A stretch of DNA of 64,000 nt, taken from Parasphingopyxis sp. CP4 (GTDB taxonomy: Bacteria; Pseudomonadota; Alphaproteobacteria; Sphingomonadales; Sphingomonadaceae). The translations under genes and the position numbers were made by a program. The stretch is taken from the NCBI RefSeq assembly GCF_013378055.1, contig NZ_CP051130.1, forward strand, positions 1 to 64,000, in the 5' to 3' direction. The notes below the pieces were generated by a model. The model was given only the letters and a program-made list of their open reading frames with translations, was not told the DNA's origin and searched no databases. Positions 25,445-38,481 of this stretch are shown in pieces. Position 1 is the stretch's first letter; each line of letters starts with the position of its first letter.

Positions 25445-26599
25445 TTACAGCGTCTTCTCGTAGACCGAATATTGGCGGTTGATCGTGCCTTCAATGGCGT
25501 CGGCGATGGCAACCATTCCCTGATTGTCATCGAGGATCCAGCCAACTTCTGCGCGTTTGGCGCCCATCGTCTCGACACCCCAGCTGCGGATCGTTTCGAT
25601 CATCATGAAGGCAAGCTGGCTCGCCAGCCGGCTATTCTGATGCTCTGGCAAGACACCCATCAAGGGAACGCGTCCGCCGCCCCAGTTTTTCCGCTTTAGC
25701 TTCCAAAGCAGCTTTGCCCAGCCAAAGGGGAGCAATGAGCCCTTCATATCGATCAGCGCCTCATTGACATCCGGCAGGCACAGCATGAACGCGGCCGGTT
25801 CGCCGTCATAATAGGCAATCAGATTAACCGGTGGATAGATGACGGCCTTCAGCTTGCCCTTGATATATTGGACTTCACGATCGGTGATCGGGACAAAGCC
25901 CCAATTCTTGCTCCAGGCCTGGTTGAGGATGGAGAGGATCAACGTGGCTTCTTCGTCGAATTTGCTCATATCAACCGGACGGATTTCGATCCGCTCATTG
26001 CGTTCGCCCGAGGCCACGATCCGGTTGATCAGGCGCGGAAACCCATCTTCGACCGGCACTTCATAGGTCAACAGTTTCTTGACCTCGTCATAGCCTGCAC
26101 GCTCGATCCAGCCTTCATAATCGGCCTTGTGATGGCCCATCATGATCATCGGTGCATGGTCATGGCCTTTGGTCAGCAGTCCCGGTTCGTCCCAGACTGA
26201 CAGGCTCATCGGCGCTATGACGCGCGTCATATTTTGATCACGCAGCCAATCCTCCGCGGCTGCGATCAACGCGTGCATTACCGATTCATCAGCCGCATCC
26301 ATCATGCCCCAGTTGCCGGTGCCCGGTCCCATGCCTTGTTCAGCAGGTTGCTCAAGCGCGAGATGGTCGAAATGCGCGGAGATGCGACCGACGGGCTCAT
26401 CGCCCCGCCAGGCAATCATCAACTGGACGGTGGCATGCTCGTAAAATGGGTTCTTGTCGTGATTGAGGAGTTCAAAGACGTCCGAACGCAGCGGCGGTAC
26501 CCAATGCGGCGTATCCGCATTCAGCCGATACGCGATATCGACAAATGTCTTGAGCTCCGCCTTGCCGGTGACCGGGCGGACGGTGATGTCTGTGCTCAT
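25445..26599 (-). CDS. GNAT-fold N-acyltransferase, bacterial ceramide synthase candidate
   Basis: A 384-residue protein of a family usually named only 'GNAT' or, wrongly, 'dATP pyrophosphohydrolase'. The conserved core 'PHWVPPLRSDV', 'NPFYEHATVQLMIAWRGDEPVGRISA' (in two pieces) and 'GLLTKGHDHAPMIMMGHH' is seen. In Caulobacter, the ceramide synthase bCerS, which acylates 3-ketosphinganine, is a GNAT-type N-acyltransferase encoded near spt. This gene lies about 9 kb from spt in the same neighbourhood and follows a fatty acid hydroxylase gene by 15 bases. The family assignment is firm. The bCerS function is inferred. Confidence 0.6.
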   Translation of the reverse strand: MSTDITVRPVTGKAELKTFVDIAYRLNADTPHWVPPLRSDVFELLNHDKNPFYEHATVQLMIAWRGDEPVGRISAHFDHLALEQPAEQGMGPGTGNWGMMDAADESVMHALIAAAEDWLRDQNMTRVIAPMSLSVWDEPGLLTKGHDHAPMIMMGHHKADYEGWIERAGYDEVKKLLTYEVPVEDGFPRLINRIVASGERNERIEIRPVDMSKFDEEATLILSILNQAWSKNWGFVPITDREVQYIKGKLKAVIYPPVNLIAYYDGEPAAFMLCLPDVNEALIDMKGSLLPFGWAKLLWKLKRKNWGGGRVPLMGVLPEHQNSRLASQLAFMMIETIRSWGVETMGAKRAEVGWILDDNQGMVAIADAIEGTINRQYSVYEKTL

Positions 26600-26614: not shown

Positions 26615-27382
26615 CTAGCCTTGGGCGCGCTGGGTCGGATGCCCGGTTGCAACGCCGCCGGATAGCTCAGACACCCACGGGTAACGCTTCGCTTTTTCCG
26701 GCGTGTAGCCAAGGTTGAACACGGTTTCGCTCTTCACCTTGCGATCCGGGCGTTCGTAAAATGTACCGAATGCCTTGTCCCAAACAAAGCTGGTGATCCC
26801 GAAATTGCCGGTCTCATCATGGAAATGATGGGCCATGTGGCGCGCTTTCATCCGGGCAAGCCATTTGTTGCGCGGCTTATATTTCAGATGCTGGATGCAG
26901 TGGCAGAACTCGTAAAAGCATGTCGTCAGCAGGCCAGCTGCAAGTGCGATCGCCATACCGCCCATGCCGCCAATAGCCCAGCCAATCGGCGCGAGGAAGA
27001 CGACGATCGTCGGCAGCGTCGTGTACAGCGCACCGAACAGCACTTCGAGATGGTTCGGGTCCTGGTGGTGATCGTAATGGATCCGCTTCCAGACCGGCGA
27101 GAAGATCTTCGTCTTGTACATCCACTGGCCGTGCAGAACCCAGCGATGGAGAACATACCAGGCGAGCGGATAAAGGACGACGGCTGCGGCCGCGCTCAAC
27201 AGCGTCGGTGCCAGTGCAGCTGGCTGCCAAGCATAGAGTGCAAGGCATGCTACGGTCAGTGCCAGATAGGCGATAATCGCGTAATACTGGAAATAGGCGA
27301 CGACCAACTCTTTAAGCGTCATCTTGTCCAGATAGTGCGACCGGTTCCAAATTCCGGCGCGCGCGGGTGCTGCGGCTCTCAC
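26615..27382 (-). CDS. Fatty acid hydroxylase / sterol desaturase family protein
   Basis: A 255-residue membrane di-iron oxygenase. Four or more transmembrane segments carry the histidine boxes 'HRWVLHG', 'HYDHHQDPNH', 'EFCHCIQHL' and 'HMAHHFHDE', the FA2H/Scs7-like pattern. Sphingomonad ceramides carry 2-hydroxy fatty acids, so this enzyme is a candidate for the 2-hydroxylation step. The GTG start at 27382 follows 'gaaggaag' at good spacing. It sits 15 bases upstream of the acyltransferase, as one operon. The substrate is inferred; carotenoid or sterol-like lipids remain possible. Confidence 0.75.
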   Translation of the reverse strand: MRAAAPARAGIWNRSHYLDKMTLKELVVAYFQYYAIIAYLALTVACLALYAWQPAALAPTLLSAAAAVVLYPLAWYVLHRWVLHGQWMYKTKIFSPVWKRIHYDHHQDPNHLEVLFGALYTTLPTIVVFLAPIGWAIGGMGGMAIALAAGLLTTCFYEFCHCIQHLKYKPRNKWLARMKARHMAHHFHDETGNFGITSFVWDKAFGTFYERPDRKVKSETVFNLGYTPEKAKRYPWVSELSGGVATGHPTQRAQG

Positions 27383-27524: not shown

Positions 27525-28988
27525 CTATATCAGCTTTGTACGGCGCGCGATCCCGCCCAATGCTGCGCGATCCTCGCTATCCAGCCCAACCCGCAATGTC
27601 ACCCAGCATAATGGTAGGAAGAACAATGTGAGAATGGCAGCGCGGATTGGCGCGGCCAGCGGCTCGAGCGCATATCCAACGCCTGACAGGATCAACAATC
27701 CCAGCGCGCCTAATGCAAGACCACGAAGAAAAGGCCCGTCAAAGGGTTGGAGGCGATCACTGATCTGGAGTTCAACCACAGCGGCCAGGGCGATTGCCAC
27801 TGCGCCAACGCTCACCGCAATCGCCATGCCTTCTGCACCGCGATCGGGTGCCAGATACCATGCCAGGACTGCCCAGACAGCAATCCCAATCAGGCTGTTA
27901 ATGAGCGGCAATATACGATGCCCGATCATCTCGACGATTGGCGTGGCTGGCCCGATAATGGCTTCGCCCATCCGGCCAATAGTGAGAATGATCAGTGCCA
28001 TAAGTGCGGCCTGCGCTCCCGGTCCGAACAGGCTCAATATGTCACTTGCCAAGAGGATCAGTAGCCCACCGAGCGGGAGGACCAAGGCCGCCGAAAGACG
28101 TGAAGAAAAGGCATAGAGTGGCGCAATCTCGGAGCGGTCAAACGCTGCTTGGGCAGAACTTAGCGGGGCCAGGACGTAGAGAAACGCCTGACGCACAATC
28201 AGCGGAACCGACGCGATCTTGCGCGCAATTCCAAACAGACCGGCGGCGGTCGCGCCCTGGGTACCTGGCAACATGAGGTTGAGCAGGATCGGCGGGAGAT
28301 CATTCAATATTCGCCGGGCAATTGCGGCGGGAGAAAGGGCGATGCCGGACACCAGTACCAGTTTCCGTAATCCTGCAGGAACTGGCGCAGTGATCATCAT
28401 TTTGAGATCATAGTAACGTCCCAAAAGGCGGACTGAGAGGATCGACACCAGCAGAAGCGAAAGGAGATGTGCGAGCAACAGGCCGTTGCTCGTCCAGCCG
28501 GCAAAGAAGAAGCTGACGGCAAAGACGAGCCGCGCGCATTGCTCCCAGAAGATCCGCAAGCGAATTTCCGGCCCGAATGCGCGCCGTGCCCGGGCAGCAG
28601 AGGTCGCGACTTCGACGAACGTCCAGAGCGGCAAGGCCCAGGCGAACAGGGCGATCATTTGCGGCAATGTCGCAGCATCTTCGGGTGATGCGGAGATTGC
28701 ACCGGCAATCTGCGGGGCGAAAAATGTGACCAGGCCTGCGATAAGCGCGGCCGGGATGACAGTTACCAATAGCGCAAATTTGACTGCGCCATGCGAAGCT
28801 TCCTCGTCGGCTACGGGAACGATCCGCTGCAGTGCCTGGGTCAGCGACAGATCGACAATCTTTTCAGCCATATTCACCGCCGACCAGAGGACGATGTAGA
28901 GTCCATAGGTCGCGATGCCGAAAAGCAGTGTATAAATGGGCTGTGCGATAACTTCGATCAGAGCGCCGAGCCGGGCCAGCGCGGCCAT
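27525..28988 (-). CDS. Polysaccharide/lipid flippase family membrane protein
   Basis: A 487-residue protein with about 12-14 hydrophobic helices, resembling the oligosaccharide flippase (MOP) superfamily that turns lipid-linked sugars across the inner membrane. Examples of the segments are 'LIEVIAQPIYTLLFGIATYGLYIVLW' (read in parts) and 'LPLGGLLILLASDILSLFGPGAQ'. The ATG at 28988 is the only standard start, but the frame stays open further upstream (see findings). It lies downstream of lptF-lptG on the same strand, which points to export of an outer-membrane glycolipid. Confidence 0.7.
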   Translation of the reverse strand: MAALARLGALIEVIAQPIYTLLFGIATYGLYIVLWSAVNMAEKIVDLSLTQALQRIVPVADEEASHGAVKFALLVTVIPAALIAGLVTFFAPQIAGAISASPEDAATLPQMIALFAWALPLWTFVEVATSAARARRAFGPEIRLRIFWEQCARLVFAVSFFFAGWTSNGLLLAHLLSLLLVSILSVRLLGRYYDLKMMITAPVPAGLRKLVLVSGIALSPAAIARRILNDLPPILLNLMLPGTQGATAAGLFGIARKIASVPLIVRQAFLYVLAPLSSAQAAFDRSEIAPLYAFSSRLSAALVLPLGGLLILLASDILSLFGPGAQAALMALIILTIGRMGEAIIGPATPIVEMIGHRILPLINSLIGIAVWAVLAWYLAPDRGAEGMAIAVSVGAVAIALAAVVELQISDRLQPFDGPFLRGLALGALGLLILSGVGYALEPLAAPIRAAILTLFFLPLCWVTLRVGLDSEDRAALGGIARRTKLI

Positions 28989-29055: not shown

Positions 29056-30150
29056 TCATTCCTCCGTTCGGATCAGCACCGCTTCGCCGATCAACAGGAA
29101 CAGGAAAAAGGGAGCCCATGCCGCCAGCAATGGCGGATATGCGCCGATATTGCCCATGGCGAGCGCGAAATTATCGGCCACGAAATAGGTGAACCCAAGA
29201 GCCATGCCGATGATCGCGCGGATGAAGAGCTGGCCGGATCGCGCCAGGCCAAATCCCGCAACAGCGCCAAGCAATGGCATCAGCAACGTCGAAAGTGGCC
29301 CGGATATTTTGTGCCACAAACCGGCTTCCAGCGATGTGGTGGATCGTCCTGCCGCTTGCAGGTCAGCAATCGCGCGGCGCAGTTCGAAGAAGTTCAGGGA
29401 TCGCGCCTCGACATTGGCCAGGGTAAATTGATCGGGCGTTACGCCGTTCGCAATGACAATGGATTCCGGGTTACTCTGTTCAACCGCCGAGACATCAAAT
29501 TGCTGCGGATTTTCGAGACGCCACCCGTCGCCAGTATAGGTGGCGCGGTCTGCGCTGACGAGAAATTCGATTACGCCGCCCGTGCGATCATAGACGGTGA
29601 CCCCTTCGAGCACGGCATCCTCGCCACGCCCTATGACAGATTGCGCGTTGATCAGGTCATTGCCGTCGCGCACCCAGACATTGGTCGAGCCTGTTGCTTG
29701 CTCGGGCATTGGGCCATAATCGACTGATTCCCAAGCGCTTAGCGTGCTATAGGCCGGAGCGACGATGCGTTCGTTGAAGGCAAACAGCCCGAGGCCGACG
29801 ATGAAGCTTGTCAGGATGAGCGGCGCGAGTATCTGGTGTGCAGATGCACCTGCGGCCTTCATCGAAACAATCTCGCTATTGGCGTTCATCGAGCTCAATG
29901 CGATCAGTGTTCCAAGCAACGCCGCGAAGGGCAGGAAGCGTTCGATCAGTTGGGGAACGCGCAGTGAGACATAGAACCAGAGTTCGGCCTCACCATTGCC
30001 TTCAGGTGCGAGGATCTTGCCAGACTCGCCGAGCAGATCGAGGGTCATCAGGATGACGACCAGTCCCCCAAGCACCGAGAAAGTGCGGGTGAGAAACATC
30101 TTCGCCATGTAGAGCGAGATTGTGCGCGACGGGAAAAACTGAAGCTGCAT
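29056..30150 (-). CDS. lptG: LPS export permease LptG
   Basis: A 364-residue permease of the LptBFG ABC transporter that pulls lipopolysaccharide-like lipids from the inner membrane. Six helices (three at each end) flank a periplasmic jellyroll domain, and the YjgP/YjgQ pattern 'RFLPFAALLGTLIALSSMNANSEIVSMKAAG' is seen in pieces around residues 62-95. It follows lptF by nine bases on the same strand. In sphingomonads, whose outer leaflet is rich in glycosphingolipid, the cargo may not be classical LPS. Confidence 0.9.
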   Translation of the reverse strand: MQLQFFPSRTISLYMAKMFLTRTFSVLGGLVVILMTLDLLGESGKILAPEGNGEAELWFYVSLRVPQLIERFLPFAALLGTLIALSSMNANSEIVSMKAAGASAHQILAPLILTSFIVGLGLFAFNERIVAPAYSTLSAWESVDYGPMPEQATGSTNVWVRDGNDLINAQSVIGRGEDAVLEGVTVYDRTGGVIEFLVSADRATYTGDGWRLENPQQFDVSAVEQSNPESIVIANGVTPDQFTLANVEARSLNFFELRRAIADLQAAGRSTTSLEAGLWHKISGPLSTLLMPLLGAVAGFGLARSGQLFIRAIIGMALGFTYFVADNFALAMGNIGAYPPLLAAWAPFFLFLLIGEAVLIRTEE

Positions 30151-30159
30151 GGTCGAGAG

Positions 30160-31365
30160 TTAGTTTCCGATCGGTCGTCTGCGGCGCAGGAAAATCCGGC
30201 GGACGAGCTGGGCCATTTTGGAGAAGCCTTTTTCGAGCGCCCCGATTGGCTGGCCGCCGGGGACATAGGCAATATGATAGTACATCCAGATAATGAGCGC
30301 CGCGAATAGCCCAAAGGGTATCCAGAGCGAAATGAACGGATCCACCCGGCCAAGTGCGGCTACGTCTTCGCCATATTGGCATATCTTGTGGAACGTTGTG
30401 ATCATCACCACCGACAGGAACACGCCGAGCGCCGATGTCGATCGCTTGGGCGGCACGGCAAGCGCCACCGCAAGCAGTGGCAACAGGAACATCATCGCGA
30501 TCTCGGCCACGCGAAAATGGAAATTGGCGCGGCTGGCGAGGCGCAGCTCTTCAGGCGCATTGCTATCGCCACTGACGCGGGAAAGCTCGAACAGCGTGAG
30601 TTCGCGATGTTCGCCACCACGCCCCCTGAATTGCTCGATCTGAGGCAGATCTATCGGCAGGTCATGGCTTTCGAAGCTCAAGACGCGCGGGCTTTCGAAA
30701 TCGTCCTGATTGTGAATGAGGCGGCCGTTGGTCAGCCGCAACAGGATCGTGTCCTGCTCATCGGTTGCCATGAATGTGCCTTGATCTGCGGACACCGATA
30801 ACGCGCGACCATCTGGCGAGGTCGTGCGCACGAAAATGCCGGACAAATCGCGCCCGTCATTGGTGCTTTCCTCGACCCGCAGCGTCATATTGCTGCCCAG
30901 AGTGTTGAACTCGCCGACGTTGATTGACGCGCCCAGCGCACCCGAACGCAGCTCAAACTGCAGGTTTTCGTAAGAATAACGGGCGATTGGCTGGAAGTAG
31001 CTGACGATCAGCAGGTTTAAGAGGACGAAACCGACGGTAAAGATATAGGGCACGAGCAAGAGCCGCCGATAGCCGATTCCCACCGCGCGAAACACGTCGA
31101 GTTCGGACGATAAAGCGAGCTTTCGGAAGGCAAACAGGATGCCGAGCATCAATCCGACCGGAATCGCCAGCGACAGATATTCGGGCACCAGATTGGCCAG
31201 CATCTGCCAAACGACATTGACCGGCCCGCCTTCACGTGCAACAAAATCGAATAATCTCAACATCTTGTCGAGTACCAGCAACATGGCCGCGATGATCAGC
31301 GTCGCCACCAGCGGGACGATGATCAGCCGGAACATATAACGGTCGGTGGCAGTGAAAATTTGCAA
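30160..31365 (-). CDS. lptF: LPS export permease LptF
   Basis: A 401-residue partner of LptG with the same topology. 'LSLAIPVGLMLGILFAFRKLALSSELDVFRAVG' is the conserved coupling region that meets LptB. It is the first gene of the lptF-lptG pair, and the flippase gene follows. The N-terminal helix 'IIVPLVATLIIAAMLLVLDKMLRLFDF' (in parts) is typical. Length is slightly above the usual 360-370 residues. Confidence 0.9.
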   Translation of the reverse strand: MQIFTATDRYMFRLIIVPLVATLIIAAMLLVLDKMLRLFDFVAREGGPVNVVWQMLANLVPEYLSLAIPVGLMLGILFAFRKLALSSELDVFRAVGIGYRRLLLVPYIFTVGFVLLNLLIVSYFQPIARYSYENLQFELRSGALGASINVGEFNTLGSNMTLRVEESTNDGRDLSGIFVRTTSPDGRALSVSADQGTFMATDEQDTILLRLTNGRLIHNQDDFESPRVLSFESHDLPIDLPQIEQFRGRGGEHRELTLFELSRVSGDSNAPEELRLASRANFHFRVAEIAMMFLLPLLAVALAVPPKRSTSALGVFLSVVMITTFHKICQYGEDVAALGRVDPFISLWIPFGLFAALIIWMYYHIAYVPGGQPIGALEKGFSKMAQLVRRIFLRRRRPIGN

Positions 31366-31498: not shown

Positions 31499-32011
31499 AT
31501 GCTGAAAGGCAAAATTATCCCTGTGGCCGCAGCCCTTACTGCGGTAACCCTGACGAGCGCGGCCCAGGCCGGTACGCGCGTCGCTAACGACATGTCCCGG
31601 TGCGAGGCCGGCGCCAGCGGAACCGCTGCGCTTGTGCGCGTTGTGGGCTTTCGTGACAATAATGGTCGCGTCCGTGTCCAATCCTATGGCAGCGGCGGCA
31701 GCTGGCTGGAACGCGGTGAATGGCTGCATCGGGTCGATATCCCGGTCCGCCCGCGCAACCGCAATATGACCGTGTGCCTGCCACTGCCGGGCCCCGGTAC
31801 CTATGGGATCGCAGTGCGCCATGATTCGAATGGCAACAACCGTTCGGACCGACGCGATGGCGGCGGCTTTTCCCGCAACCCGGATCTCTCCTTCCCGTTC
31901 AACCTGGAACCCGATTTCGACGAAGTCGTCATCCGGGCCGGCAGCGGTGTCACGCGCGTGACGGTGGTGCTCAACTATCTCCAGGGCATGTCCGTGGAGC
32001 CGATTGGCTAA
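31499..32011 (+). CDS. Secreted DUF2141 protein
   Basis: A 170-residue exported protein: signal peptide 'KIIPVAAALTAVTLTSAAQA', then a small beta-sandwich domain with 'GTYGIAVRHDSNGNNRSD' and a closing 'VTRVTVVLNY', the DUF2141 pattern. Two cysteines (near 37 and 98) could form a disulfide. Function is unknown. It is divergent from lptF and sits three bases before the lipid kinase gene, so it probably belongs to that operon. Confidence 0.8.
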   Translation: MLKGKIIPVAAALTAVTLTSAAQAGTRVANDMSRCEAGASGTAALVRVVGFRDNNGRVRVQSYGSGGSWLERGEWLHRVDIPVRPRNRNMTVCLPLPGPGTYGIAVRHDSNGNNRSDRRDGGGFSRNPDLSFPFNLEPDFDEVVIRAGSGVTRVTVVLNYLQGMSVEPIG

Positions 32012-32014
32012 CAG

Positions 32015-32989
32015 ATGGTCTGCGTCGCCCTTCTCTCCAATCCCCGATCTACGGGAAACGTCGCCATGTTGCCGCGCATCCGCAAATTCTGCGCGCAGCG
32101 GGCTGACATTTTCCATTATGAGGTCGAGGATGTGAGCCAGATTGGCGATGCGTTGCAGACGATCGCGCGTGTCAAACCCCAGATCCTGGTAATCAATGGC
32201 GGTGATGGCACCGTCCAGGCTGCGCTTACCGAGTTGCATCACGGCCAACAATTTCCGGATGGCGCGCCGCCGGTCGCTGTATTGCCGAACGGCAAGACGA
32301 ACCTGATCGCGCTGGATCTCGGCGCAGAGGGCGATCCGATCGCGGCGCTCGAACGGATCATGGAGATCGTGCGCACAGATCTTTCCGATCATATCGTGCG
32401 CCGTGAACTGATTGCGCTGTCCGGTGGCGATGCCAATGGTCGACCGGTACTCGGCATGTTCCTGGGCGGAGCGGGCCTTGCAGATTCGATCCTCTATTGC
32501 CGTCACAAAATCTATCCGCTTGGATTGCCCAATGGCTTTAGCCATCTGATCACGGCGATCGCGGTCGTCTTTTCGGCGCTGTTTAGGATCAAGGCGCGCT
32601 TCCTGCCGCCACAGGCCCGACCAATCAGCGTTTCGGTGGTCCATGAAGGGCAGATTCAAGGCAAGTTCGCGCTGTTGATGGTGACAACGCTCGAAAGGCT
32701 GTTGCTCAAGAGCCAGACAGATCTGGGCGCCACTGATGCCGGTCCGCTCAAACTCATGATGGTCGAACAGAAACCGCTGACATTGCTGCGCGCTTTCTGG
32801 GCCAGCCTGTTCGGTCGCCTGGGAACCAGCTCACTGGCGGGTGTCCATCTCAGCCATGGTAATGAAATTCGTATCGAAGGCGATCGCTCCAGCGTGATCC
32901 TTGATGGTGAATTGTTCGAGACCCATAACGAACGGCCGATCGTTCTTACCCATACAACGCCCGTACCGTTCCTCTCGCTCGCAGCGTGA
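32015..32989 (+). CDS. Diacylglycerol/ceramide kinase-like lipid kinase
   Basis: A 324-residue soluble lipid kinase of the DAGK catalytic superfamily. The nucleotide loop is 'ILVINGGDGTVQAAL' near residues 61-75, with 'VAVLPNGKTNLIA' after it. A member of this superfamily, CpgB of Caulobacter, is a ceramide kinase encoded beside spt. Here the gene is close to spt and translationally coupled (GTGA overlap) to a Tam41-like nucleotidyltransferase. Both diacylglycerol and ceramide are reasonable substrates; ceramide is favoured by context only. Confidence 0.75.
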   Translation: MVCVALLSNPRSTGNVAMLPRIRKFCAQRADIFHYEVEDVSQIGDALQTIARVKPQILVINGGDGTVQAALTELHHGQQFPDGAPPVAVLPNGKTNLIALDLGAEGDPIAALERIMEIVRTDLSDHIVRRELIALSGGDANGRPVLGMFLGGAGLADSILYCRHKIYPLGLPNGFSHLITAIAVVFSALFRIKARFLPPQARPISVSVVHEGQIQGKFALLMVTTLERLLLKSQTDLGATDAGPLKLMMVEQKPLTLLRAFWASLFGRLGTSSLAGVHLSHGNEIRIEGDRSSVILDGELFETHNERPIVLTHTTPVPFLSLAA

Positions 32990-33900
32990 CCACAGTTCAG
33001 GATCTGGTCCGCGCGGAGATTGCGGTCTCCGCCGATCCGCGTGTTGCGGCCTTTGCAGCGCATGTCGCGGGACTGTTTGGCGATTCCGCTCGGGCCGTAT
33101 TATTCTATGGGTCTTGTCTTCGGACGACAGAGCTCGATGGTCAGATGCTCGATTTCTATGTCATCGTCTCGGATTATCGCGAGGCCTATGATCGCCGTTG
33201 GCTGGCGGTTGCCAATCGCTGGATCCCGCCCAACGTCTTTCCCGTCCAGCACGAAGGCCTGCAGGCCAAATATGCGGTTCTGAGCGAGGCGGATTTTGAT
33301 CGGCTGGCATCCTCACAAACCCGAAACGTATCTGTATGGGCACGGTTCGCGCAGCCGTCTCGATTGGTTTGGAGTCGTGATGATGCAGCGACAGAGCGGG
33401 TGGTGATGGCCATCGCCAAAGCGGCGCCGGCTCTAATTGGTGCGGCAATCCCGATGACTGACGGATCGATTGATCCGCTCGATCTGTGGCGCGAAGCCTT
33501 TGCATTGACATATTCGGCCGAACTCCGTGCGGAACGGGGTGGGCGCGCGGCCTCGGTCGTCGATTTCGACCCCGAACGCTATCGCCAATTCACGGGGCCG
33601 GTTCTTGCTGACCTTGGTATCGATGTCGAAGGCGCCAATGCCATCGTTGCGCCCGGCCAGGGTGGTTCGCGTGCGGCGCGCTGGGGTTGGCGGCGCCGGC
33701 GGATCGAGGGCAAGCTGTTGACGATTATCCGCCTGGCCAAGGCAAGCGCCACCTATGCCGGCGGCGTCGATTATCTAGCCTGGAAGATCAATCGCCATGC
33801 AGGAACAGAGATTGATGTGCGTCCCTGGCAAAGGCGATGGCCGCTGCTCGGTGCGCTTGTCCTCCTGCCGCGCCTGTTGATGCGCGGTGCCGTCAGATAG
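32986..33900 (+). CDS. Tam41-like CDP-lipid synthase candidate (nucleotidyltransferase)
   Basis: A 304-residue protein that reads like mitochondrial Tam41 (Mmp37), a phosphatidate cytidylyltransferase unrelated to CdsA. 'VLFYGSCLR' followed by 'MLDFYVIVSD' corresponds to the GS...D nucleotidyltransferase motif. 'QAKYAVLSEADF' matches the Tam41 VKYGV strand, 'FALTYSAELRAE' its ALSYAGDIR helix, and 'ATYAGGVDYLAWKI' its C-terminal TAG...Y..K region. The GTG start overlaps the lipid kinase stop. The pair could make phosphatidate or ceramide-1-phosphate and then activate it with CTP. It overlaps the convergent kinase gene by eight bases. Confidence 0.65.
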   Translation: MTTVQDLVRAEIAVSADPRVAAFAAHVAGLFGDSARAVLFYGSCLRTTELDGQMLDFYVIVSDYREAYDRRWLAVANRWIPPNVFPVQHEGLQAKYAVLSEADFDRLASSQTRNVSVWARFAQPSRLVWSRDDAATERVVMAIAKAAPALIGAAIPMTDGSIDPLDLWREAFALTYSAELRAERGGRAASVVDFDPERYRQFTGPVLADLGIDVEGANAIVAPGQGGSRAARWGWRRRRIEGKLLTIIRLAKASATYAGGVDYLAWKINRHAGTEIDVRPWQRRWPLLGALVLLPRLLMRGAVR

Positions 33901-35851
33901 ACGGCTGCGGAACGGCTTTTTCGATACTATCGGCCAGGGCGGCAACCGTGAACGGTTTGCGCAGGATGGCATGGCCCGCCAATTGCTCGCTATCGATCGC
34001 GTCGCGGGCGTAACCCGTCACGAAAATGATCGGTAGATCCGGCAATCGTTCCTTCACATGCCCCGCCAGTTCCGGGCCGGTCATTTCGGGCATGACGATA
34101 TCGGAAAGGAGCAAGTCGATATCGGGCCGTTCGTCCAACACCTCCAAGGCCGTCGGGCCATTGGCGCATGCCAGGACTTTATGGCCCAATTCTTCCAGTG
34201 CTTCGGTGGTCGATCGGCGCACCCGTTGATCGTCTTCGACCATCAGGATCGTCATCGCACGCTGTTCCGAGCCCGATTGCGGCACGACTGTATCGCCGGC
34301 CGGGGCCGATGGCGGGAAAGCTGCATCGCCATGGAAGCGTGGCAGGAACAAGGATACGGTCGTCCCACTGCCTACCGTGGACTCTATCGCAATCTCGCCG
34401 TCGGACTGACGGATGAATCCGAAAATCTGGCTGAGGCCCAATCCCGTTCCCTTGCCGACCGGTTTGGTCGTGAAAAAGGGTTCGAAGGCATGTTCGATAA
34501 CTTCTGCATCCATGCCCTCACCAGTATCGCTGACGGCGATCTCGACATATTCGCCCGCATCCACGGCATCGATATCGCCGGTTTTTACATCCCGATTGCG
34601 AATGGCAATTGTCAGCTCCCCTTTGCCGTCCATCGCATCGCGCGCATTCACGGCAAGGTTCAGCACGGCATTTTCCAGCTGATGGGGATCCACCCAGATC
34701 GGCCAAGTCCGATCATCGGCGGCAATGGTCAGCGAAATCTGTTCGCCGAGTGAGCGATGGAGGAGATCCGCCATTGCATCGACAAGATCGGCGGCATCTG
34801 TTCCTTCGGGAAGGAACGGCTCTGCGCGCGCAAATGTCAGCAGTCTTCGGGTCAGGGCAGCAGCGCGATTGGCGCCTTCCATGGCGTGATCGATATGCGT
34901 GCCAGCTTTCTCACTATCGCTGGCAAGCTTGCGTTTGGCCATTTCAAGTCCGCCGACGACAACGGCCAGCATATTGTTGAAATCATGAGCGATCCCGCCG
35001 GTCAGCTGACCGACGGCTTCGAGTTTTTGCGCCTGATTGAGTTTTTGTTCAGCCGCTGCGCGTTCGGCGACTTCCGCGCGCAGCTGGGTGTTTACCGCCT
35101 CCAATTCTGCCGTACGCGCTGCAACAGCATCTTCGAGTGCATAGGCGCGCTGGTCAGCATCAGACCGCTGGCGAAATGCGAGCAGGGTGGCATAGGCAAG
35201 TCCCAGGGCAGCAAGGCCGAGGATGATACCGGCTATGGTGAGCAATGTGGCTAGTAAGCGAGCCCGTTCATTGGTCGACACGCGAGCGGCGGATCGGTCA
35301 CTGAGGAGCTCCCGCTCCTGGCTGATAATCTGATCCAGCGTGGCCAGTGCATCGGCACCATTCTGGCTGGCGGTTACGCGATTATAGCGGGCCAACGCAT
35401 CGAAGTTGCGGCCGCTGGATGCAAGCCTTGCCGCGACCGCCAGTTCGCCCGAATAGGCGTTGAACAGATCTTCAAGAATTTGCGCGCGCGCAGCCTGTTC
35501 CGGGAAATCGCGGACAATGCGTTGCAACTGATCGATCCGGCGGTCAGTGGCTCGGCGTTCATTGCGATAGATGGTTGCCGGAGTGCTATCACCGTTGATG
35601 ATGAAGCGGCCAAGAGCCGCTTCGGACTGGGCAATCGATTCCTCAATGCTGCGCGCTGCCATGATGGTCTCAAAGCTTTGGCGTTCGCTGAGCGCAGCTG
35701 CATCCCGCTCATCATTGGATTGGACGACAAGATAGATGAGCGCAGCAAAGAGCAGGGCAAGAACAAGTGCGCCAGCGCTAGCCAGCCCGCGCAGCCATAT
35801 TTGCCTGTCAGAAAAGCCTGTCGGAGCTGCCTGTTCGTCGCTGAGCGCCAT
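33893..35851 (-). CDS. Hybrid sensor histidine kinase with CHASE3 domain
   Basis: A 652-residue membrane kinase. One transmembrane helix at about 20-40 is followed by a CHASE3-like sensor ('SFETIMAARSIEESIAQSEAALGRFI'), a second helix at about 190-215, a coiled coil and a HisKA domain with 'TGGIAHDFNNMLAVV'. The HATPase is complete ('NLAVNARDAM', 'DTGEGM', 'GKGTGLGLS'), and the C-terminal receiver has 'LLLSDIVMPEMTG'. The ATG at 35851 is preferred over a TTG 45 bases upstream. No DNA-binding output is attached. Its signal is unknown; it lies between the lipid kinase pair and spt. Confidence 0.85.
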   Translation of the reverse strand: MALSDEQAAPTGFSDRQIWLRGLASAGALVLALLFAALIYLVVQSNDERDAAALSERQSFETIMAARSIEESIAQSEAALGRFIINGDSTPATIYRNERRATDRRIDQLQRIVRDFPEQAARAQILEDLFNAYSGELAVAARLASSGRNFDALARYNRVTASQNGADALATLDQIISQERELLSDRSAARVSTNERARLLATLLTIAGIILGLAALGLAYATLLAFRQRSDADQRAYALEDAVAARTAELEAVNTQLRAEVAERAAAEQKLNQAQKLEAVGQLTGGIAHDFNNMLAVVVGGLEMAKRKLASDSEKAGTHIDHAMEGANRAAALTRRLLTFARAEPFLPEGTDAADLVDAMADLLHRSLGEQISLTIAADDRTWPIWVDPHQLENAVLNLAVNARDAMDGKGELTIAIRNRDVKTGDIDAVDAGEYVEIAVSDTGEGMDAEVIEHAFEPFFTTKPVGKGTGLGLSQIFGFIRQSDGEIAIESTVGSGTTVSLFLPRFHGDAAFPPSAPAGDTVVPQSGSEQRAMTILMVEDDQRVRRSTTEALEELGHKVLACANGPTALEVLDERPDIDLLLSDIVMPEMTGPELAGHVKERLPDLPIIFVTGYARDAIDSEQLAGHAILRKPFTVAALADSIEKAVPQPSI

Positions 35852-35944
35852 AGGCTGATCGCTATATCGCGCGCAGCGCCGCTTCGATAGCAGCAATGCG
35901 CGGTTCGTCAGCCAATTTCGCTCAGCTGGCCGTGCAACCGTTGA

Positions 35945-37198
35945 TTAGGAAATGGCGCCTGTTGCTTTGCCGGCGGCCTCGAACATGCCGAGAATCTGCT
36001 CGACCTGCTCGCTGGTATGTTCAGCGCAGAGCGAACACCGCAGCAGATATACGCCAACCGGTGTTGCTGGCGGGCGAGCCATATTCACATAGAGCCCATG
36101 TTCGAGCAGTGCCTGCCACATGCGGACGGCTTTTTCCTGATCGGGCAGGAGGACCGCAAGGATTGCGCTTTCCGGTTCGTCTGTCGCCAAGGTGAAGCCC
36201 AAATCCCGCAGGCCACGATGGAGCCGCTTGCTGTTTTCCCACAGATGATCGCGCTTCTCACCCGCATTCATGAGCTTGCGGATCGACGTAGTGGCCGTTG
36301 CGACTACCGATGGTGGTAGCGATGCGGTGAAGGTGTAGGGGCGACATACAAGCCGCAGGAAATCGGTTCTCGGATGGTTGGAGACGCAGAAACCACCGAC
36401 CGTGCCAACGCTTTTCGAGAAGGTACCGATGACAAAATCGACCTGATCGAGCACGCCCTGGGCTTCTGCAACTCCGCGGCCATGTTCGCCAAAAAAGCCC
36501 ATCGAATGCGCTTCGTCGACCAGCACCATTGCACCATATTTCTTGGCGATCGGGACCATTTCGTCGAGCGGTGCAATATCACCGAGCATTGAATAGACGC
36601 CTTCAAGGACCACCAGCTTGCCCGCTTCTGGCGGCAATTTGGCGAGGCGTTTTTCGAGATTTTCGACATTATTGTGCCGGAAGCGCACGATATCGGCATT
36701 GCCGAGAAAGCAGCCGTCATAAATGGATGCATGGCTGTCGGCATCCAGGATCACATAATCACCGCGCCCGGCCAGGGTCGAGACGATGCCCAGATTGGCC
36801 TGATAACCAGTGGAAAAGACCATCGCATGGTCCATTCCATAAAAGTCCATCAGCGCTTCTTCGCAGGCCTTATGGCCGACATAGGTGCCGTTGAGCACGC
36901 GGCTGCCGGTGGTGCCTGAACCGAATTTTTCGAGCGCTTCGATGCCAGCCGCAATAACGTCCGGATCAAAGGTCATGCCCATATAATTATATGTGCCAAG
37001 CAGGATCGTGTCCTTGCCGTCGATTACCGCTTCGGTTGGCGAGCGGACTTCGTCCATGACGATCGCAAAAGGATCGCGCACGCCAGCGGCAAGCAACTCA
37101 TCGCGCTCCTTAACCAGCGGATCGAATTTGGCGAACAGGTCGGCTGCCTTGGGCGTTTCGGTTTCCGGCTGGATGGCTTCGGTCGTGGTCGCGTTCAT
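35945..37198 (-). CDS. spt: Serine palmitoyltransferase
   Basis: A 417-residue soluble PLP enzyme that condenses serine with an acyl thioester to 3-ketosphinganine, the first step of sphingolipid synthesis. The sequence follows the Sphingomonas paucimobilis enzyme closely: 'LGTYNYMGMTFDPDVIAAG', 'GSGTTGSRVLNGTY', 'FSTGYQANLG', 'DADSHASIYDG', 'VDEAHSMGFFGEHGRG', and the PLP lysine in 'GTFSKSVGTVGG'. The start overlaps the acp stop by four bases. A serine enzyme rather than KbL/BioF is indicated by these blocks and by the coupled ACP. Confidence 0.95.
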   Translation of the reverse strand: MNATTTEAIQPETETPKAADLFAKFDPLVKERDELLAAGVRDPFAIVMDEVRSPTEAVIDGKDTILLGTYNYMGMTFDPDVIAAGIEALEKFGSGTTGSRVLNGTYVGHKACEEALMDFYGMDHAMVFSTGYQANLGIVSTLAGRGDYVILDADSHASIYDGCFLGNADIVRFRHNNVENLEKRLAKLPPEAGKLVVLEGVYSMLGDIAPLDEMVPIAKKYGAMVLVDEAHSMGFFGEHGRGVAEAQGVLDQVDFVIGTFSKSVGTVGGFCVSNHPRTDFLRLVCRPYTFTASLPPSVVATATTSIRKLMNAGEKRDHLWENSKRLHRGLRDLGFTLATDEPESAILAVLLPDQEKAVRMWQALLEHGLYVNMARPPATPVGVYLLRCSLCAEHTSEQVEQILGMFEAAGKATGAIS

Positions 37199-37437
37199 TC
37201 TTTCAGCTCCTCGACGGCATCGACAAGCTGACCGACATTCTCAATCTCGGCCTGCTGGTTCATCGTGATCACGATATCGAATTCGTCTTCGATTGACGCG
37301 ACAAAATCCATCACCGTCAGGCTGTCCCATTCGAGATCGCCCGCAAAGGTCGTGCTGTCGGTCAGCTCGGTCCCTTTGGCATTAAATGGTTCGATAAGGT
37401 CCTTTACCGAGGCAAAGGTCTTCGCGCGGTCTGTCAT
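37195..37437 (-). CDS. Acyl carrier protein dedicated to sphingolipid synthesis
   Basis: An 80-residue acyl carrier protein with the phosphopantetheine serine at residue 39 in 'DLEWDSLTVMDF'. It starts the acp-spt pair and overlaps spt by four bases. In Caulobacter a special ACP (AcpR) next to spt supplies the acyl chain to the enzyme, so the same role is inferred here. It differs from the housekeeping AcpP, which reads 'DLGADSLDTVE'. Confidence 0.88.
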   Translation of the reverse strand: MTDRAKTFASVKDLIEPFNAKGTELTDSTTFAGDLEWDSLTVMDFVASIEDEFDIVITMNQQAEIENVGQLVDAVEELKE

Positions 37438-37569: not shown

Positions 37570-38481
37570 CTAATCCAGCCAGCCTTGGTCGAGATACCAT
37601 TTTGCTGTGTTTTTAAGGCCTGATTGGTAGGAAATCTGCGGCGCCCATAGCGAAGCAGGGGGCGCGTGCACCGGATTCACGACCCAGTCGGGATGGCAGA
37701 AATAGCGAGCGCGATCCGGTGTGAGCTTGGCGTCCGCACCGCGAAACAGGCGATCGAACCGAGCGCCGAGCCGGACAATTGGCGCTGGCATGGAGAAAGT
37801 CCGGACTGATTTCCCGACCGCATCGCCCAGCGCTTTGCCGAACTCGACATGAGACAGGCCAGTGGGGGTGCCGTCGTCCGGTTCAAAGATCGCTCCCTTG
37901 GCCGCATCCCCTTCGAGAGAGGCAAGGATGAGCGCACACAGATCTTCGACATGGATCAGCGAGGCCCGCCCGGAGGGTGGCGTTATCACCAGCCCGCGTT
38001 TGGCCATGGCAAACAGTTCGAGCGTCTCGCCATCGCCGGGGCCGTACACGGCCGGCGGGCGGATGATCGTCCAGTCGGTGCTGGACTCTTGCACCAGCGT
38101 TTCGGATTCCGCCTTCGACCAACCATAGTCGGACAGCGCGGGCTCGCGGGCAGCGAGCGAGGAGATATGGACGAAGCGGCGAACGCCGGCTGCCTCAGCC
38201 GCTGCCAGCATGTGGCGGGTGCCCTCGATATTGGGTCCGGCAAATCCGTCGCGATCCTCGGCGCGGATTGCGCCAGCGATATGGATCACCGCATCCGCGC
38301 CCTCGGCCAGCTGTTGGAGGCTGTTGGAATCGCTGAGCCGGCCGGAAACCCATTCGATACCTTCGTAAGCACTTTGCTCTTTGCGGGTCAGCGCTTTCAC
38401 CCGATATCCCGCTGCGACTGCCATCCGCAGCAAATGCCCACCGACAAAACCGGTACCGCCAGTCACGGCCAGATTCTTCAC
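37570..38481 (-). CDS. cerR: NAD(P)-dependent epimerase-family reductase, ceramide reductase candidate
   Basis: A 303-residue extended short-chain dehydrogenase. The Rossmann motif 'VTGGTGFVGGHLL' is at residues 6-18, and the active-site Tyr/Lys pair is in 'DYGWSKAESE'. In Caulobacter a protein of this type (CerR) encoded beside spt reduces ketoceramide. Here the gene is 133 bases downstream of acp on the other side of an operon junction: its ATG overlaps the proB stop (ATGA), so it is expressed from the obgE-proB operon. The family is sure; the ceramide role is inferred from context. Confidence 0.7.
   Translation of the reverse strand: MKNLAVTGGTGFVGGHLLRMAVAAGYRVKALTRKEQSAYEGIEWVSGRLSDSNSLQQLAEGADAVIHIAGAIRAEDRDGFAGPNIEGTRHMLAAAEAAGVRRFVHISSLAAREPALSDYGWSKAESETLVQESSTDWTIIRPPAVYGPGDGETLELFAMAKRGLVITPPSGRASLIHVEDLCALILASLEGDAAKGAIFEPDDGTPTGLSHVEFGKALGDAVGKSVRTFSMPAPIVRLGARFDRLFRGADAKLTPDRARYFCHPDWVVNPVHAPPASLWAPQISYQSGLKNTAKWYLDQGWLD

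Follow-up and report, generated by a model that had tools for sequence, protein, structure and literature searches.

Tam41 makes CDP-diacylglycerol from phosphatidate. Bacterial Tam41 is already known (PMC11646218; PDB 7ecd), and CdsA is described as embedded in the membrane and unrelated to Tam41 in both sequence and structure (PMC7018664). In Caulobacter, CC_1160 (CpgB) is reported to be a ceramide kinase (PMC10331486), and CC_1160 and CC_1161 (CpgC) are both reported as required for CPG (PMC11324152, PMC12275187). CC_1161 carries an InterPro domain that points to a CDP-diacylglycerol synthase, and an NDP-activated ceramide was suggested in 2024 as the CpgC product (PMC11324152). How CpgC works is still described as unidentified in a preprint of 2026 (PMC13228409). 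The CofC-like CC_1153 is described as acting after CpgC, CC_1153 or CC_1152 mutants as still making CPG, and orthologues of the cluster are described in S. wittichii and Z. mobilis, the latter without CC_1159 (PMC11324152). CpgD (CCNA_01210) is described as a CTP:phosphoglycerate cytidylyltransferase (PMC12275187). The anionic sphingolipids of Caulobacter are reported to bear on polymyxin sensitivity and LPS-free survival (PMC11324152, PMC10331486).

The locus studied here lies in a window of 64,000 nucleotides, the whole stretch of DNA that was analysed, from Parasphingopyxis sp. CP4, whose genome is one contig of 2.96 Mb. It holds a lipid kinase gene and, overlapping it, a gene whose product we refer to as P2. 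New here are the co-occurrence of P2 with a MobA/CofC-like nucleotidyltransferase and the evidence on the P2 fold. If our reading of the pair is true, it fills an unexplained step of bacterial sphingolipid synthesis, from ceramide-1-phosphate to ceramide phosphoglycerate.

Gene content of the locus

The features of the locus are listed in Table 1. As judged from their sequences, the genes around the kinase and P2 are a ceramide gene cluster. An overlap of a DAGK-family kinase gene with the gene that follows, which the earlier note had pointed out, was confirmed by the reading frames and the domain match. The window kinase has the DAGK_cat domain, the GGDG motif and the ceramide-gene neighbours by which a CpgB-type ceramide kinase is recognised and, from its family and place, probably phosphorylates ceramide. 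The GNAT-domain gene adjoins the nucleotidyltransferase c8 in other clusters, as seen in the neighbourhood comparison. The 487-aa protein beside LptG had no match in Pfam or NCBIfam and could be a candidate lipid flippase.

The CHASE3 hybrid histidine kinase is possibly a regulator of the pathway. Of 80 related loci, 50 have a match to a similar gene, which stands at another place in L078 and L115. The DUF2141 gene was matched in 59 of the 80; on a Qipengyuania plasmid it adjoins the kinase and P2 genes, which overlap there by four bases.

Table 1. Features of the kinase-P2 locus, in window coordinates.
Feature	Position	Strand	Evidence or remark
GNAT-domain protein, ceramide synthase (cerS) by position	25445..26599	-	Pfam Acetyltransf_1 8e-6
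Fatty acid hydroxylase	26615..27382	-	Pfam PF04116 3.2e-21
487-aa protein, polytopic by eye, adjoins LptG	27525..28988	-	
LptG	29056..30150	-	TIGR04408 302 bits, cut-off 240
LptF	30160..31365	-	TIGR04407 238 bits, cut-off 230
DUF2141 protein, precedes lipid kinase	31499..32011	+	
Lipid kinase (DAGK_cat), CpgB-like, 324 aa	32015..32989	+	Pfam PF00781 E 2e-13; GGDG motif, sequence NGGDGTVQAAL; in SPT cluster
GTGA start/stop overlap, kinase and P2	32986..32989	+	ORF coordinates
P2, predicted Tam41-fold nucleotidyltransferase, CpgC-like, 304 aa, GTG start	32986..33900	+	Z 17.4 to 7ecd; hhalign E 5.1e-6; relative L047 above PF09139 cut-off
Y41-G42-S43 of P2, nucleotidyltransferase GS motif	33106..33114	+	Invariant 35/35, same in Tam41
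D56 of P2, invariant acidic residue	33151..33153	+	Same in Tam41
K95 of P2, KYG block	33268..33270	+	Invariant, same in Tam41
R120 of P2, GRxxKP block	33343..33345	+	Invariant, same in Tam41
E179-L-R181-A-E183 of P2	33520..33534	+	E179 aligns with D; R181, E183 same in Tam41
C-terminal helices of P2, residues 280-299, basic and hydrophobic	33823..33882	+	Model secondary structure
CHASE3 hybrid histidine kinase, between P2 and spt	33893..35896	-	
Serine palmitoyltransferase (Spt)	35945..37198	-	NCBIfam NF047603 780 bits, cut-off 670
80-aa acyl carrier protein-like ORF, acpR position	37195..37437	-	DSLT motif by eye
NAD-dependent epimerase/reductase, cerR position	37570..38481	-	Pfam Epimerase 9.7e-25

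Conservation of the kinase-P2 pair

A kinase match was found in 55 of the 59 P2 loci of the first locus set, obtained from the genome search, and at 65 of the 80 loci of the second set the kinase lay directly upstream of P2 in the same orientation; the pairing is therefore beyond chance. The other 15 loci comprised one with the kinase ∼3.8 kb away, three with less than 2.2 kb of upstream sequence, and eleven with no kinase. The four-base overlap is not general, as 8 of 66 kinase-bearing loci have GTGA or ATGA where the kinase gene ends. SPT was found within 1.5 kb in 29 of the 59 loci, and in 67 of the 80, which were mostly longer.

Eleven loci, ten from Sphingobium and one from Novosphingobium (L083, L090, L092, L099, L101, L112, L123, L124, L127, L134 and L138) have kept the histidine kinase and SPT downstream of P2 and are without a lipid kinase upstream. 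Other genes occupy the place of the lipid kinase in L083, L090, L124 and L127.

Relationship of P2 to Tam41

P2 itself had no Pfam match at E ≤ 10 and no NCBIfam match at E ≤ 1, and its likeness to Tam41 is therefore invisible to a direct HMM scan. Within the family, represented by an alignment of 35 members (A1), hmmscan matched PF09139 to two, L047 and L056, the other 33 giving nothing at E ≤ 1. L047 passed the curated cut-off (29.0 versus 24 bits), whereas L056 (23.2 bits) and L210 (21.7 bits) fell below it. The PF09139 search proposed in the earlier note thus failed for P2 and succeeded for a relative. The hhalign comparison of A1 with three Tam41 sequences gave an E-value of 5.1e-6 and a probability of 86% over 189 co-linear columns; with a narrower profile (A2) the E-value was 0.002 and the probability only 14%. 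No PF09139 match above the cut-off was reported in the source genome, in 289 genomes of the class or in 398 of the phylum, which does not equal absence because G182, the genome of L047, went unreported although L047 passes the cut-off, and no control genome was matched. Sequence searches of the PDB, with either A1 or L047 as query, brought up no Tam41. The P2 of the window is ∼76–78% identical to the P2 of Parasphingopyxis relatives.

The AlphaFold model of P2, built from 56 sequences, had a mean pLDDT of 88.8 and a pTM of 0.88. In Foldseek, five Tam41 chains ranked first (E 5.9e-8 to 8.4e-7), with loose superpositions (TM 0.44–0.55, rmsd 6.1–9.1). In VIA-align, the three solved Tam41 entries took ranks 1–3, namely 7ecd (Z 17.4, 226 residues aligned, 3.3 Å), 6ig4 (Z 15.3, 216 aligned, 4.2 Å) and 6ig2 (Z 14.7, 4.2 Å); the next best match was an aminoglycoside nucleotidyltransferase with a Z of 9.0 over 113 residues. 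Tam41 alone covers both domains of P2, to residue 257, the aminoglycoside nucleotidyltransferases covering ∼113 residues, to residue 149. The nucleotidyltransferase and winged-helix fold of Tam41 was found in the P2 model. Residues beyond ∼257 are uncovered by the structural alignments and include two helices (280–284 and 286–299; block pLDDT 83 and 77, lower at the very end), which may contact the membrane, by analogy with the description of Tam41 in PMC7018664.

In the joint alignment, nine positions (Y41, G42, S43, D56, K95, R120, P124, R181 and E183) were invariant in 35 of 35 members and identical in the three Tam41s, and E179, invariant in the P2 family, aligned with an Asp of Tam41. Of the acidic pair usual at such sites, P2 has D56 alone, the second position being Y58 in P2 and Ile in Tam41; of the acidic residues whose loss the earlier note had considered decisive, D56 is retained. 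P2 therefore conserves the Tam41 CTP-site set (GS motif, single Asp, Lys, Arg and Asp/Arg block). The analysis of these residues is one of conservation.

Given the modelled fold, the site residues and the profile alignment, with the direct PF09139 match lacking for P2, we class it as a remote Tam41 homologue with a predicted common fold and site. The proposed match to Tam41 is upheld by these three lines and by L047, and falls short in P2's own PF09139 result. Its further description as a mitochondrial-type enzyme of evolutionary interest in an alphaproteobacterium carries little weight, as bacterial Tam41 is known and the yeast Tam41s are nearer the Firmicutes enzyme. The Firmicutes and two yeast Tam41s are 40–46% identical to each other in the compared stretch; the two yeast proteins score 40 and 44% against the Firmicutes enzyme. 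Against the P2 family, the three Tam41s have means of 15–17%, with a maximum of 21%. Because of these identities (15–17% versus 40–46%), the P2 family finds no support as the direct source of mitochondrial Tam41, and an origin of the latter in this alphaproteobacterial family was rejected.

Co-occurrence of P2 and a MobA/CofC-like nucleotidyltransferase

The nucleotidyltransferase query was L162:18040-18849, which matches Pfam NTP_transf_3 and, weakly, CofC (E 0.001), and fits the description of CC_1153. The source genome has two tandem copies, 61% identical (L197:8825-10410; G000:C1 about 1693324-1694909), both matching NTP_transf_3 and not CofC. P2 was present in 48 of 60 relatives, the source genome included. 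The nucleotidyltransferase, at E ≤ 0.001, accompanies it in every one of these and was matched in no P2-less relative, an agreement of 60/60. SPT was detected at E ≤ 1e-100 in 58 of the 60. All 12 P2-less relatives keep it, which places P2 as a branch enzyme after ceramide, and as P2 and the nucleotidyltransferase are lost together while SPT is kept, the nucleotidyltransferase is the candidate partner of P2. The kinase was matched at E ≤ 1e-10 in 46 of the 48 genomes with P2 and 4 of the 12 without. In the P2-less G043, G048, G053 and G058, the kinase match ends 8–67 bases from the convergent SPT match, at P2's usual place.

Of the 289 genomes of the class, 34 have P2, and the nucleotidyltransferase was matched at E ≤ 1e-10 in 33 of these 34 and in no other; the exception, G130, bears P2 without the nucleotidyltransferase in a genome that is 82% complete. 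The two agreed in 288 of 289 genomes at this cut-off, which was chosen after inspection of the list, and in 283 at the search's own 1e-3 (E ≤ 0.001), where five further P2-less genomes match weakly (5e-8 to 9e-4). Some of the genomes compared are incomplete. Fisher p-values were 7e-13 for the 60 relatives and 1e-42 for the class, with kinship ignored. In a tree built from 58 SPT proteins, a stand-in for the species tree from which G003 and G047 were left out (SPT unmatched), P2 needs ∼10 changes, at least six of them forced by well-supported branches, all shared with the nucleotidyltransferase; as the two patterns are identical, that of P2 was in effect run against itself. Independent pairs on this tree agreed in 6 of 6 cases (sign test p 0.031). 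The tie in the source genome is not one of linkage, because the tandem pair lies ∼1.66 Mb away along the contig.

Headgroup enzymes and plasmid-borne clusters

The two PF01066 proteins of the source genome are PssA (112.7 bits, cut-off 107) and PgsA (138.5 bits, cut-off 109.1), and neither a further PF01066 transferase nor a CpgA match was found there. For the headgroup step, either PgsA or PssA would take CDP-ceramide, or an unrelated enzyme would act. CpgA-type genes (>200 bits) occurred in 12 of the 48 P2-bearing genomes and in 1 of the 12 P2-less ones, and show no such tie to P2. Since 36 of the 48 P2-bearing relatives, the source genome included, are without such a match, P2 and the nucleotidyltransferase do not feed CpgA only.

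Among 23 P2 loci, a CpgA-type CDP-alcohol phosphotransferase was present in 11 and CpgD-like genes in three (L161, L269, L270). As for the neighbours expected of CpgC, the window has the kinase and spt; cpgA was not found in the genome, but a CpgA-type gene adjoins kinase-P2 in L161, L162 and L164 in the order cpgA-cpgB-cpgC. The match positions agree on this order with the gene calls, which are incomplete in GC-rich loci and were used for no counts. SPT stands next to kinase-P2 in L161 and L162; the L164 genome has it in L053.

A second CDP-alcohol phosphotransferase type (PTa), ∼35–38% identical to the CpgA type, was seen in 4 of the 23 loci (L150, L154, L159, L270) and is a candidate for another headgroup step. 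One of the two CDP-alcohol transferases of plasmid pDCB2 was considered as the missing consumer of CDP-ceramide and rejected: the one that overlaps P2, by four bases, is CpgA-like, and the other type, PTa, is confined to those four of the 23 loci.

L269 is plasmid pPNP1 of Pseudomonas sp. JS425 and L270 the conjugative plasmid pDCB2 of Diaphorobacter sp. JS3051. Both are IncP-type, from a gamma- and a betaproteobacterium respectively, and carry P2 and headgroup genes near sul1 and mer genes. Most of the ceramide genes are also on pPNP1, some 20 kb of which hold an aminotransferase (in the place of spt), a phosphopantetheine protein, a reductase, an acyl-AMP ligase, a nucleotidyltransferase, LptF, LptG, the kinase, P2, a phosphoesterase, a CDP-alcohol transferase and a CpgD-like gene. 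In the pDCB2 stretch examined, spt was not seen. These clusters suggest that plasmids can spread the lipid pathway.

Proposed pathway and alternative explanations

Because the genes for a kinase and a Tam41 relative overlap in a ceramide cluster, ceramide is probably the substrate that the pair first phosphorylates and next activates, with CTP. The kinase, from its family and place, would convert ceramide to ceramide-1-phosphate, and P2, from its fold and residues, would convert this and CTP to CDP-ceramide and pyrophosphate. A CDP-alcohol phosphotransferase would then replace CMP by a headgroup, and the resulting anionic phosphosphingolipid may reach the outer membrane via LptF/G-type machinery. 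The MobA/CofC-like nucleotidyltransferase would serve the same pathway, probably by activating the headgroup. We consider this cpgB-cpgC-like route probable, with moderate confidence. The computed evidence fits ceramide-1-phosphate and phosphatidate alike, and we infer the former for P2. The earlier proposal, in which a kinase and then a Tam41-like cytidylyltransferase act in succession, is thus supported within a ceramide cluster, with CDP-ceramide as its best reading; the idea is already in print, as an NDP-activated ceramide for the Caulobacter counterpart (PMC11324152). “CDP-ceramide” and similar terms were not found in the literature searched, to which subscription papers mostly did not belong.

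The alternative raised in the earlier note, in which the kinase makes phosphatidate to salvage diacylglycerol and P2 makes CDP-diacylglycerol as Tam41 does, gained little positive evidence and is unlikely. The kinase does have a DAGK_cat domain, and the closest solved folds to P2 are CDP-diacylglycerol synthases, but the pair is located in a ceramide cluster and the loss of P2 is tied to a nucleotidyltransferase of sphingolipid clusters. Moreover, the 12 of 60 relatives without a P2 match carry PF01066 transferases of the kind that requires CDP-diacylglycerol, so P2 is not the general CDP-diacylglycerol synthase. P2 might also use another nucleotide or another target, its place beside the kinase reflecting a different role in the pathway. 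Aminoglycoside nucleotidyltransferases belong to the same superfamily and nucleotidylate other substrates, and they are the next structural matches (Z 8.2–9.0). Tam41, however, is alone in matching both domains (226 versus about 113 residues), and the conserved neighbourhood is one of lipid metabolism, which leaves this reading quite improbable.

Joint presence and absence has a further possible explanation, namely that the CofC-like enzyme supplies an NDP-headgroup and P2 is itself a transferase, moving the phospho-headgroup onto ceramide-1-phosphate. LicD-type proteins, transferases with a nucleotidyltransferase fold, provide the model, and a CDP-alcohol transferase would be unneeded, in keeping with a source genome that shows no dedicated one. 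CPG carries one phosphate, whereas the product of such a transfer would bear a pyrophosphate, and P2 has kept the Tam41 CTP-site residues. Caulobacter mutants in CC_1153 or CC_1152 are, in addition, described as still making the CPG that requires CC_1161 (PMC11324152), and we regard a transferase role as improbable.

The favoured CDP-ceramide route can be widened, although only tentatively and with the joint claim standing as rather doubtful. CpgC-type proteins would be CTP:ceramide-1-phosphate cytidylyltransferases that produce the liponucleotide CDP-ceramide. The kinase, P2 and the nucleotidyltransferase would form a core module, lost whole or as P2 and nucleotidyltransferase with the kinase left. 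In the many CpgA-less sphingomonads, CDP-ceramide would enter general phospholipid synthesis at PgsA or PssA, and ceramide counterparts of phosphatidylglycerol, phosphatidylserine or phosphatidylethanolamine would be formed.

Comparison with known systems

Tam41/TAMM41 (PF09139; S. pombe 6ig2/6ig4, Firmicutes 7ecd) is like P2 in the nucleotidyltransferase and second-domain fold and in the YGS, D, K, R, P, R and E residues. P2 differs in its mean identity of ∼15–17%, the lack of a direct PF09139 match and its location in a sphingolipid cluster. The reaction proposed for P2, between CTP and a phospholipid, is of the same kind as that of CdsA. CpgD is a cytidylyltransferase of the same lipid pathway, as is proposed for P2, but belongs to another family (COG1213) and acts on a small soluble substrate.

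Unlike Caulobacter, the window genome has no CpgA match, its two tandem MobA/CofC-like enzymes lie far from the cluster, and a hybrid histidine kinase gene stands between P2 and spt. If CC_1153 acts after CpgC, the tie of P2 to the nucleotidyltransferase without CpgA is not accounted for by the Caulobacter order. As with CpgB-CpgC, a lipid kinase is followed by a protein resembling CDP-diacylglycerol synthases, beside spt and ceramide genes. By this gene order, and within an explanation that we hold as a whole to be fairly probable, the pair would be the sphingomonad counterpart of Caulobacter cpgB-cpgC (CC_1160-CC_1161, CCNA_01218-01219).
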